Shown: positions 15,687 through 24,822 of the stretch, one piece after another
Numbering within the stretch: position 1 is the first letter of the stretch
Layout of the letters: the number at the start of each line of letters is the position of its first letter
Origin: Chloroflexota bacterium
Lineage (GTDB): Bacteria > Chloroflexota > Chloroflexia > Chloroheliales > Chloroheliaceae
Direction: 5' to 3'
Assembly: GCA_902812345.1 (NCBI GenBank)
Contig: CADDZM010000012.1
Location: 1 to 37,497, forward strand
Length of the DNA: 37,497 bases
Position numbers and translations under genes: made by a program
Notes under the pieces: generated by a model
Seen by the model: only the letters and a program-made list of their open reading frames with translations
Databases searched by the model: none
Told to the model about the DNA's origin: nothing

Positions 15687-17515
15687 TCTTTCTTCTTGTT
15701 GCCGCTCTGCGAGTCGTCGTCCAGGCTGAGGACCGCCATAAAAGCTTCCTGGGGAATTTCGACGTTACCGACCATCTTCATGCGGGCTTTACCCTCTTTT
15801 TGCTTTTCCAGCAACTTGCGCTTGCGGGTAATGTCGCCGCCGTAACATTTCGCCAGCACGTTCTTACGCATGGCGTTGATAGTCTCACGGGCGACTACCT
15901 TGGAGCCGACCGCCGCCTGAATCGGCACCTCGAACAACTGGCGCGGTATCAGGCCGCGTAATTTGGTTGTGAGGGCGCGGCCCTGCGAGAAAGCTTTGTC
16001 GCGGTGGGTAATCAGCGAAAGAGCGTCAACCGAAGTCCCGGCAACCAGGATGTCCAGCTTGACGAGGTCAGCCGGTCTATAAGCGTTAAAGCTGTAGTCA
16101 AGCGAAGCGTAGCCCTGAGTCCGCGATTTTAGCTGGTCGTAAAAATCAACGATAAGCTCGGCCAGGGGCATTTCGTAGCCCAGGAGCACCCGGTTTTCAT
16201 CTAAATATTCCATTTTGGTATAGATGCCGCGCCGGTTTGTGACCAGTTCCATAATCGCGCCGATATAACGGGTCGGCGTGATAATCGAAATGTTCATCCA
16301 GGGTTCCTCAATCTCGGACATCTCGCCTGGATTAGGCATATCGCTGGGGTTATCCACCACGACTATTTCGCCGTTAGTACGCATTACGTGATATTCCACG
16401 CTGGGGGCAGTCGCCAGCAATTCGAGGTTATATTCGCGCTCCAGGCGTTCCTGGATAATTTCCATGTGCAACAGGCCCAAAAAGCCGCAGCGGAAACCAA
16501 ACCCAAGCGCCGCCGAGGTTTCCGGCTGATAAATCAGCGAAGCATCGTTCAGCTTGAGTTTTTCCAGGGCGTCGCGCAGTTCGGTATAGTCGTCGCTGTT
16601 GATAGGGTAAATCCCGGCGAAGACCATCGGCTTGGCCGGACGATAACCTTCCAGGGCTTTGCTGGCCGGTTCTTTTGCAAGGGTAATCGTGTCCCCGACC
16701 TGGCAATCAGCCACCACTTTTAGGCCGGTGGCGATATAGCCGGTCTCGCCGGTAAGAAGTTCTTTAATAGGGGTAGGGATAGGCCGGAAAACGCCCACTT
16801 CCAGGATGGCCGCGTTCTTGTCGGTCGCCATCATCTTGATAACGTCATCCGAGCGCACCTTGCCGTCAATCACCCGGCAATAAGCGATAACGCCCTTATA
16901 AGCGTCGTAGTGGCTGTCGAAAATCAGGGCACGCAACGGCTTGTCAGGCTCGCCTTTGGGCGGCGGCACCCGCTGGACAATCGCTTCGAGGATTTCAGAG
17001 ATACCTGTGCCCATCTTGGCCGAGGCTTCAATAATTTCTTCGCGCAACAGGCCGATAGTATTCTCAATCTCGGTCGCCACCACTTCAGGTTGGGCGGCGG
17101 GTAAATCTATTTTGTTAATGACCGGGATGATTGTCAGGTCTTGCTCGACAGCCATGTACAGGTTCGCCAGGGTCTGCGCCTCGATACCCTGGGTGGCATC
17201 CACAACAAGGATAGCCCCTTCGCAAGCGGACAGGCTGCGGCTGACCTCATAGGTAAAGTCAACGTGGCCGGGAGTGTCAATCAGATTAAGCTCATACTCG
17301 ATGCCATCTGAGGCGTTATAGTTCATGCGGACGGCGCGGGCCTTGATGGTAATACCCTTCTCACGCTCGAGATCCATGGAATCGAGCAACTGGGCCTGCA
17401 TGTCCCGGTGGGCGACGGTGCCGGTAAATTCCAACAAGCGGTCGGCCAGGGTTGATTTGCCGTGGTCAATATGCGCGATGATACAAAAGTTACGAATCCT
17501 GCTCTGTTCTGTCAC
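15683..17515 (-). CDS. lepA: Elongation factor 4 (LepA), ribosome-associated GTPase
   Basis: Translational GTPase that acts on stalled or assembling ribosomes. 610 aa, normal length. The GTPase domain shows G1 AHIDHGKST at residues 14-22, G2 EKGITIKA, G3 [10 protein letters not shown] and G4 NKIDLP. It is followed by domain II, the III/V-like domains, and the LepA-specific C-terminal domain ([22 protein letters not shown]). The start is GTG, with no strong Shine-Dalgarno. A promoter lies at 17562-17590. It overlaps the nitrilase stop at the other end. Confidence 0.96.
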
Positions 17516-17561
17516 AGCCTGTTTTCTCGGGTTTTCTAGTTAATCGAAGTTTTCAGGCCAA

Positions 17562-17590
17562 ATTATACACTACCGCTCCCTTAAACACAA
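17562..17590 (-). promoter_or_regulatory. Probable lepA promoter
   Basis: Minus-strand TTGTGT (17590-17585), 17 bp, TATAAT (17567-17562). The -10 is perfect, the -35 matches mainly in TTG. The start would be near 17555, 40 nt before the GTG. Confidence 0.5.
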
Positions 17591-17741
17591 AGGTTCGCTA
17601 ATTCTTGAACTTTTCCTATACCCTTTTTCTTACTTTTTTCGCCTTTTCTTAACTCAAAGTTCCAAATCGTGGAAGCGTATTTGCTCTAAATTCTGGGGGT
17701 TGGTTAGTAAAGAACTAAATAATTGAGAAAAGGAAGGTTTT

Positions 17742-18113
17742 ATGCATAACACCAGAGAAGGCTTGCCTATCGGACCAGCAGCCGCCAACGACCGGACCGG
17801 GCAGGAATGGGGCGGGATGTTCCCGGAAATCACCCGGCTTTCACCCGCGCAAGACTATACTTCGATGTACAAAGATTTGCCGGATGGAAAATGCCAGGCT
17901 GCTCACTGGGGATATGTGTTGTCAGGCACCCTCAAAGTTAGTTACAGTGACCACGAAGAGGAAATCGGGGCCGGTGAAGCCTTTTACCTGCCGCCGGGCC
18001 ACCTGCCGAACGTTGACGAGGAAACCGAACTTGTCCAGTTCAGCCCGCTCAAAGAGTTCCGGCAAACCATGGAGGCCATGCACCACCAGGCCCAACCCGG
18101 CAAAAATCTTTAG
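17742..18113 (+). CDS. Small single-domain cupin protein
   Basis: 123 aa. A cupin barrel is suggested by HWGYVLSGTLKVSY (His55, motif 1 region) and GEAFYLPPGHLP (His87, motif 2). The usual HxH plus Glu metal set is incomplete: only His55 is seen in the first motif, followed by Trp and Gly. It may bind metal weakly or act as a non-enzymatic sensor. The ATG has AAGGAAGG at good spacing. It stands alone, between lepA (opposite strand) and a gene-free region. Substrate unknown. Confidence 0.75.
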   Translation: MHNTREGLPIGPAAANDRTGQEWGGMFPEITRLSPAQDYTSMYKDLPDGKCQAAHWGYVLSGTLKVSYSDHEEEIGAGEAFYLPPGHLPNVDEETELVQFSPLKEFRQTMEAMHHQAQPGKNL

Positions 18114-18319
18114 GCCTACCTACTTTTATTTCTTTGCGTTATGAACGGTCTTGAAAGAACAAATGGCCTTACTTTGCTATGTGCCCTCCGGCAAGATTTT
18201 CTTTACAGAGTAGGAGAACCGCCAACTGGAAACACCGGATTTTAAAATTGTCTGGTAAAACTCAAACGAATCCCAAACGGCCTTGTTAATCTCTATGAGT
18301 GGCTTAAGAAAAATAATAG

Positions 18320-18586
18320 GCCCTTGCAAGAAGGGTTAGCTTGCAAGGGCATGGGATGGTGCAAGCGTTCCAGTGGAGTGAACGCCTGCGAAGGGTTTGA
18401 CCAGAATGATTTCCGGTCTACTTAGAGTTTAGCACACAACAATCATCAATTCAAATAGGTTGTCAAATTTAACTCTTTACAACACTAATTGTTTCTAAAA
18501 ACTTAAATATCAGGAAAAAAAACAACTACAACCATCATTCATACCCACAATAAGTCCGAGATTAAAAGGCTCTCGGACTTTTTTTT
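18320..18586 (+). ncRNA. Candidate structured non-coding RNA
   Basis: The 529-bp gap 18114-18642 has no ORF. It carries three back-to-back stems. The first is GCCCTTGCAAG/CTTGCAAGGGC (18320-18330 with 18340-18350, perfect 11 bp, 9-nt loop). The second is GCAAGCGTTC/GAACGCCTGC (18361-18370 with 18380-18389, one mismatch, 9-nt loop). The third is GACC-A-GAA/TTC-C-GGTC (18399-18405 with 18412-18418 approximately). An A+T-rich tail leads to a strong terminator at 18552-18586. The order hairpins then terminator, far from the cupin stop, suggests a separate RNA read rightward. I recognise no known family and found no clear promoter. Confidence 0.35.
18552..18586 (+). terminator. Intrinsic terminator in the gene-free region
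   Basis: AAGTCCGAG (18552-18560), 11-nt loop, CTCGGACTT (18572-18580), running into eight T (18579-18586). It works on the plus strand. It is 440 bp beyond the cupin stop, so it more likely ends a separate transcript, though a long 3' end of the cupin message is possible. Confidence 0.85.
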
Positions 18587-18642
18587 ATTTATAGGCTTTT
18601 TATTGTTTTCTAACAACCAGACCTTCGTTTGCAATAACCGGC

Positions 18643-19548
18643 CTAGATCACCTTGACCGAGTTCGCCAGGAGACCGATGCCTTCGATTTCGATTTCCACC
18701 AGGTCACCGGCTTGCAAGGTAAAATCGTCGGGCGGGACGATGCTGGTCCCCGTCGAAAGCAATACTCCTTCAGGGAAACTGTTAGAGCGGCCCAGATAGC
18801 CGATTAACTCCGGCAAAGTTCGTTTTAGCTGGGCAGTATTTGCGCCCCCGTGAAAGACTTCCAGTCCTTCCCGTTTGATACTACACTCCATCCGCAGCTC
18901 CGGCTTTTCCGGCAAGGCATCTACCAGCAAGACGGCCGGACCGACCGCGCAGCAAGCGTCGTAGAGCTTGGCCTGGGGCAGATAAAGCGGGTTAGCGCCT
19001 TCAATATCGCGAGAGCTTACATCGTTGCAAACTGTAAAGCCGATAAATTTAAGGCGGTTATCCAGCAGCACAGCCAGTTCCGGCTCCGGCACCGACCATT
19101 TGCTGTCCTGGCGGATAGCAATTTGCCCACCCGGCCCGACCACCCGGTGGGGCGTCGCTTTGAAAAAGAGTTCAGGCCGCTCTGCGTCATAGACCAGGTC
19201 GTAAATTTTGGAGGCAGTATCCGACTCCTCCATACGGGCCTGGCGGCTCCGCGAGTAAGTCACCCCGGCCGCCCACACTTCCTGGCGGTCCAGCGGCGTC
19301 AGCACCCGGCCCTGCAAGACCAGTTCGGGGAAACTACCCAGAGCCTCCGCGCCATCGCTGATTTCGGTTACAAATTCAATCAGGGGGCGGTCCCCGGCGC
19401 TGGTGATGAGTAAATCCCACGAGATAACATCTATAACTTCGCGCTGTCCTTCCTGCAAAGGCAGCCGCAATACCCGCACCTGTTCGTCGTCACCGACCAC
19501 AGCCAGGACCGACCCTACTTCTTGCAGCAATACCCGGCATATTTTCAT
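18643..19548 (-). CDS. Fumarylacetoacetate hydrolase (FAH) family protein
   Basis: 301 aa. The FAH catalytic domain occupies about residues 100-300. It has [11 protein letters not shown] near residue 147 (metal-binding Glu pair), [15 protein letters not shown] (conserved Asp), [13 protein letters not shown] and [19 protein letters not shown]. The variants resemble dehydratases of 2-keto-3-deoxy sugar acids (for example arabinonate) more than true fumarylacetoacetase, but this rests on motif likeness. GGAGG lies 5 nt before the ATG. No sugar-acid pathway genes are adjacent. Confidence 0.85.
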
Positions 19549-24786: not shown

Positions 24787-24822
24787 CCTATTATTTATAA
24801 AACCCCTATTATTTATAAAACC
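24787..24822. repeat. Perfect tandem 18-bp duplication
   Basis: CCTATTATTTATAAAACC occurs twice back to back (24787-24804 and 24805-24822), followed by a partial third unit (TTTTATAAAAC). It is in the 74-bp gap just upstream of the O-methyltransferase, so copy number could affect its promoter. No similar unit was noticed elsewhere in the window. Confidence 0.9.

Follow-up and report, generated by a model that had tools for sequence, protein, structure and literature searches.

The window, i.e. the whole stretch of 37,497 nt that was analysed (genome G000), contains a 529-bp gap between the end of a cupin ORF at 18113 and the end of a convergent FAA-hydrolase ORF at 18643; all coordinates given here refer to the window and to the + strand of the element that lies in this gap. 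Nothing convincing was found inside the gap in the way of an ORF, as an earlier note on this DNA had stated, and the three stems of 7-11 bp within 100 bp described in that note were recovered by sequence reading and by folding (Table 1). The clear intrinsic terminator with eight T that it mentioned is present as well. Its loop of 9 nt, longer than the 8 allowed in a simple terminator scan, is presumably the reason why that scan did not list it. Upstream of the hairpins, the TCAAACGAA and TGTTA blocks may form the promoter of a small RNA; they are a poor match to sigma-70, and a promoter scan reported none at 18262-18289. The 5' end of such an RNA would be expected somewhere between approximately 18297 and 18314.

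Table 1. Features of the element and its direct surroundings (window coordinates)
Feature	Position	Strand	Basis and remarks
Putative promoter blocks TCAAACGAA (18262-18270) and TGTTA (18284-18288)	18262..18289	+	Three-species alignment, spacing equal in all
Proposed small RNA	18314..18586	+	Approx. 270 nt; blastn island 18314-18442 against G002, terminator taken as 3' end
Hairpin 1	18320..18350	+	11 bp (18320-18330/18340-18350), 9-nt loop AAGGGTTAG (18331-18339); folding
Motif GAAGGGTT, copy 1	18330..18337	+	Mostly within the loop of hairpin 1
Hairpin 2	18361..18389	+	9 bp and one A.C mismatch (18361-18370/18380-18389), loop CAGTGGAGT; folding
Motif GAAGGGTT, copy 2	18390..18397	+	Linker joining hairpins 2 and 3
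Hairpin 3	18399..18418	+	7 bp and one A.C mismatch (18399-18406/18411-18418)
Conserved island AGTTTAGCACA	18426..18436	+	Possible pairing with GTGCAAGC (18359-18366), closing an alternative four-way junction
AT-rich spacer, poorly conserved	18447..18548	+	Identity counts; last part from 18526 identical in G001, not in G002
Intrinsic terminator	18552..18586	+	Stem 18552-18561/18571-18580, then T18579-18586 (eight T)

Full copies of the element are present in all three genomes of the genus that were searched, one in each: the window genome, Chloroflexi bacterium 54-19 (G001, contig MKTJ01000034.1) and MAG RYN_336 (G002, contig JAQBPB010000031.1). NCBI taxonomy places strain 54-19 in Candidatus Chloroheliales, which a passage in PMC10972752 gives as the order formerly named 54-19. 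Two genomes from sister genera (G003, and G004, presumed to be that of Ca. Chlorohelix allophototropha) gave no match at E <= 10. A covariance model run against 158 genomes of the class returned six matches at E <= 1, three of which are the genus members (E of about 1e-30 or less), while the other three (E 0.06-0.83) are judged to be chance; among 400 genomes drawn evenly from the phylum only the window genome was recovered at E <= 0.1, G001 and G002 evidently falling outside the draw, and the stricter filters of both searches mean that weak matches can be lost. When 61 genomes were searched at the DNA level, 22 of them matched at E <= 1; just three of these matches were strong, and the remainder (E >= 0.02) are treated as chance.

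Over the first 87 nt (18316-18402) the window is identical to G001 at 86 positions and to G002 at 83. For the hairpin 1 region (18319-18350) this amounts to 32 and 31 of 32 positions, and for the hairpin 2 region (18361-18390) to 30 and 28 of 30, respectively. The part directly upstream (18250-18311) is identical at only 43 (G001) and 30 (G002) of 62 positions and the AT-rich spacer at 58 and 47 of 97, gap columns apart in both cases. Hairpin 3 is variable in sequence and differs in length by 1-2 nt among the species, and just 3' of it the island AGTTTAGCACA is identical in all three. In G002 the terminator region is identical at 25 of 40 positions, where the stem has changed and the terminator has been retained, and the alignment places the T-run of every species on the strand of the RNA. 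Strain 54-19, but not G002, shares with the window every letter of the 47-nt tail before and into the terminator (18526-18572). Within a 13.4-kb block that is syntenic with strain 54-19, the element ranks first of 13,394 87-nt windows (86/87), above lepA, the next distinct windows reaching 83 and the median being 72 (positions outside blastn matches scored as mismatches). When the window is compared by blastn with a 17.9-kb stretch of G002, nothing but the element matches at E <= 1e-5. As far as these alignments indicate, selection acts on nearly every nucleotide of hairpins 1 and 2, their loops and their linkers.

Conservation of this kind could be sought in a peptide, i.e. the element could be a small mRNA in which a frame from TTG 18324 or ATG 18351 (...MGWCKRSSGVNACEGFDQN...) is translated into a short, conserved Cys-containing peptide. 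A matching frame is indeed open in all three species (33 aa in the window and 35 aa in G001, both from TTG, and 46 aa from ATG in G002). However, only one base in 87 has changed between the window and G001, whereas the third codon positions of the neighbouring genes are 65% identical between the same two genomes (260 of 402 in lepA, over the first 402 of its 610 codons, and 195 of 301 in the FAA hydrolase), and the constraint therefore lies on the nucleotides rather than on a peptide. Furthermore, G002 has CTG in place of the TTG start, three non-synonymous and two synonymous changes fall in the gap-free part of the frame (three-species alignment, read by eye), the indels of 1-2 nt in hairpin 3 shift the frame so that the C-termini differ, and ATG 18351 appears from the sequence to have no well-spaced ribosome-binding site. 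A coding role is, all in all, quite improbable.

In the window and in G001 the element is situated between lepA and the FAA hydrolase gene (with the cupin gene there too in the window), while in G002 it is found between an aldehyde dehydrogenase (Aldedh) gene and a gene for a 4Fe-4S/CCG-domain protein, an 81-aa ORF sitting before the latter. All three genomes have a convergent gene downstream of it. If shadow frames are left aside, the closest upstream ORF of both G001 and G002 is divergent (lepA in the former, the 81-aa ORF followed by the 4Fe-4S gene in the latter), and the ORFs listed upstream on the same strand all prove to be shadow frames lying within lepA or the 4Fe-4S gene. Because the neighbours differ in G002, while the downstream gene is convergent and a terminator of its own is present in all three genomes, the element appears to be a stand-alone transcript rather than the leader or 3' UTR of another gene, or a repeat. 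Judged by sequence alone, it is an independent transcription unit with its own terminator, untied to any neighbouring gene.

Seen from the window only, the element might be taken for a leader acting in cis (a riboswitch or an attenuator) or for the cupin gene's 3' UTR, as that gene is found on the same strand 200 bp upstream and hairpins followed by a terminator are attenuator-like. The convergent orientation of the next gene in all three genomes contradicts the riboswitch-like leader that the earlier note had proposed as one of its options, and a leader of the downstream gene is excluded on this ground. An origin as 3' UTR is likewise unlikely, since the same-strand upstream ORFs in G001 and G002 are only shadow frames and since the RNA has been retained in G002 despite its changed context, so that a cis-acting element of either type is very improbable. 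The occurrence of two different chromosomal contexts among three species would also suit a mobile or repeat element (MITE, REP or IS end) of which only a remnant is left, a reading that had been suggested as well in the form of a dead mobile repeat. Yet each of the three genomes contains a single full copy, and the many copies that would have identified a repeat were not seen. In addition, none of the eight neighbour proteins scanned is a transposase, the element gave no match by blastn against plasmids nor by an exact-pattern scan of the IMG/VR viral contigs, and its conservation is far above that of its flanks, which together make a mobile remnant hardly credible.

None of the 4227 Rfam families, which include 6S, SRP, RNase P, tmRNA and riboswitches, matched anywhere in the window at the gathering score, and ARAGORN found no tRNA or tmRNA genes, in agreement with the initial impression that the stems fit no recognised RNA family (tmRNA, SRP, RNase P or 6S). 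A permissive Rfam search of 18100-18700 gave eight sub-threshold matches at chance level (best E 0.086), and on the two homologous stretches Rfam returned, at the gathering score, only a tRNA and a 5S rRNA, away from the element. A literature search found no paper describing it. The proposal of a candidate new RNA is thus supported by exceptional conservation, by the lack of an Rfam match at the gathering score and by a conserved terminator; the element appears to be real and single-copy, ordinary in kind and unusually conserved.

With respect to structure, folding of 18310-18590 and of 18310-18425 gave z-scores of -3.63 and -3.22 relative to dinucleotide shuffles, with none of 200 shuffles equally good in either case. 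With a tighter cut of 121-123 nt per species, the z-scores were -2.25, -1.79 and -2.35 (6, 12 and 7 of 300 shuffles equally good). The predicted folding energy hence backs a structured RNA and is supportive, alone not conclusive. In the full-length RNA the outer pairing of hairpin 2 has a probability of 1.0, 0.98 and 0.91 across the three species, and its inner pairing 0.99, 0.98 and 0.29.

The fold given by RNAalifold is a different one, in which hairpin 1 precedes a four-way junction that has GUGCAAGC and GUUUAGCAC as its closing helix. This raises the possibility of a genus-specific structured RNA that switches between exclusive folds, either the three hairpins or a flush four-way junction (GUGCAAGC/GUUUAGCAC, with a GCGA tetraloop arm), and that would belong to an undescribed type of sensor or ribonucleoprotein RNA and not to the ordinary antisense sRNAs. 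Such a switch is favoured by the conservation of the 3' island in isolation, by the two G002 substitutions at hairpin 2, both of which stay paired in the junction fold, and by the closing helix, which in the 5' domain alone has a probability of 0.47, 0.19 and 0.03 in the three species. In the junction 96.6% of cells are paired, versus 92.0% in the three hairpins. For the 5' domain the energy of the junction is 0.7-2.9 kcal/mol below that of the bare hairpins as drawn, but folds of lower energy than the junction exist in all three species (containing hairpin 2 in G001 and G002, and of a third arrangement in the window). What disfavours the switch is that the closing helix has a probability of only 0-0.01 in the full-length RNA, and that 8.6% of shuffled islands pair as well as the real one at 18426-18436. 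An RNA that alternates between these folds is unlikely. Within the 47-nt tail of the window and G001, which G002 lacks, ACCATC (18531-18536) may furthermore pair with GATGGT (18355-18360).

Covariation argues neither for nor against a fold, as three sequences give no power. One of 29 pairs is compensatory for the hairpins and one of 39 for the junction, and 342 and 327 of 500 shuffles, respectively, reach as much (three sequences only). The two-sided change is at pair 18403/18414 in hairpin 3, which is A-U in G001, G-C in G002 and an unpaired A.C in the window.

The near-invariant stems and loops are compatible with a protein- or ligand-binding RNA too. In one such reading the element is a sponge or ribonucleoprotein scaffold that would offer two sites to a protein other than CsrA by means of its hairpins and the repeated GAAGGGUU. 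In line with this, the two copies of GAAGGGTT, 60 nt apart, are the only ones in the 37.5-kb window when both strands are counted; most of each copy (at 18330 and 18390) stays unpaired when the three hairpins form (in one fold of 18310-18425, part of the second copy is weakly paired with the stretch directly 3' of hairpin 3), and the stems of hairpins 1 and 2 are as fixed as their loops, which goes beyond the needs of simple pairing. On the other hand, at least two copies of GAAGGGTT per window were found in 40 of 100 shuffles, and no candidate protein is at hand, CsrA being missing from all five family genomes. Protein binding as the main function is thus possible but somewhat doubtful.

A CsrA sponge was rejected, since CsrA was found in none of the five family genomes (the control for the same search matched in 3 of 14 known genomes). 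Sponge RNAs of the CsrB/RsmY type share with the element G-rich motifs in loops and linkers, one GGA being present in the loop of hairpin 2, but they differ in that the family genomes of the element have no CsrA (five of five) and in that the element has few motifs; GAAGGGUU is presumably not the CsrA motif. Hfq was not found above the cut-off in any of the five family genomes. A sub-threshold Hfq-like match (23.5 bits, cut-off 27) is located at G004:C1:2705614-2705754, inside a 238-aa frame.

Of the three options offered at the outset, only that of a small regulatory RNA survives, its mechanism being our inference. The element is probably a stand-alone gene of approximately 270 nt, with its own promoter and terminator, for a trans-acting regulatory small RNA that base-pairs with mRNAs. 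In the absence of a recognisable CsrA and of an above-cut-off Hfq in these genomes, it would act without these helpers, and its likeliest role would be that of a trans-acting, Hfq- and CsrA-independent regulatory RNA, with base-pairing coming first and protein binding second. It would be transcribed from the + strand, starting at its own putative promoter and stopping at its own intrinsic terminator, of which the latter can be seen in the sequence. The 5' 90 nt would then form stable hairpins that present fixed single-stranded segments, namely the loop AAGGGUUAG, the linker AUGGGRUGGU, the loop CAGUGGAGU and the linker GAAGGGUUU with the second copy of GAAGGGUU. Either these segments or the conserved UUUAGCACA island would probably base-pair with mRNAs in trans, and the AT-rich spacer could serve as a loosely constrained tether to the terminator.

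Regarding possible targets, the three genomes together contain 13 sites for the antisense 11-mer of loop 1 and 14 for the reversed control, and the sole site of the 11-mer in G002 is the element itself. The antisense 10-mer of the island does show an excess, with 18 sites (three of them the element) versus 6 for the control, or 5, 7 and 6 per genome (element included) versus 4, 2 and 0. No shared target was recognisable in the three genomes with the 11-mer and 10-mer seeds; for the 10-mer sites, nearby ORFs were compared by eye on their first residues, and no gene was shared across the species.

Multi-hairpin, trans-encoded sRNAs are exemplified by OxyS. With the trans-encoded, intrinsically terminated bacterial sRNAs the element has in common its intergenic position, its own terminator, several 5' hairpins with exposed loops and a conservation that is independent of context, whereas it differs from them in that its host genomes have no Hfq above the cut-off and in that it belongs to no Rfam family at the gathering score. 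It also resembles the structured RNAs found computationally by Weinberg-type approaches, being a conserved, structured orphan RNA from comparative genomics, but it is found in one genus only, its covariation is not established and it is absent from Rfam 15. With an RNA core that is more conserved than any compared stretch of lepA, in cells for which neither CsrA nor above-threshold Hfq was found, the element would give a way into the study of RNA-based regulation in Chloroheliales, to which the phototroph Ca. Chlorohelix belongs. It merits naming as a candidate family, which would allow it to be checked in RNA-seq data sets.

Two further observations were made in the window. The region upstream of lepA (17516-17599, - strand) is strongly conserved too, with 82 of 87 positions identical to G001 over 17513-17599 and 79% identity to G002 over query positions 1-87 of 17510-17640; its folding is not unusual (z -0.94), and it contains TTGTGT-17 nt-TATAAT. 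Elsewhere, at 24787-24822, a perfect 18-bp tandem repeat (CCTATTATTTATAAAACC, two copies) is found, of which CCTATTATTT is, perhaps by chance, the reverse complement of AAATAATAGG (18311-18320) at the start of hairpin 1.
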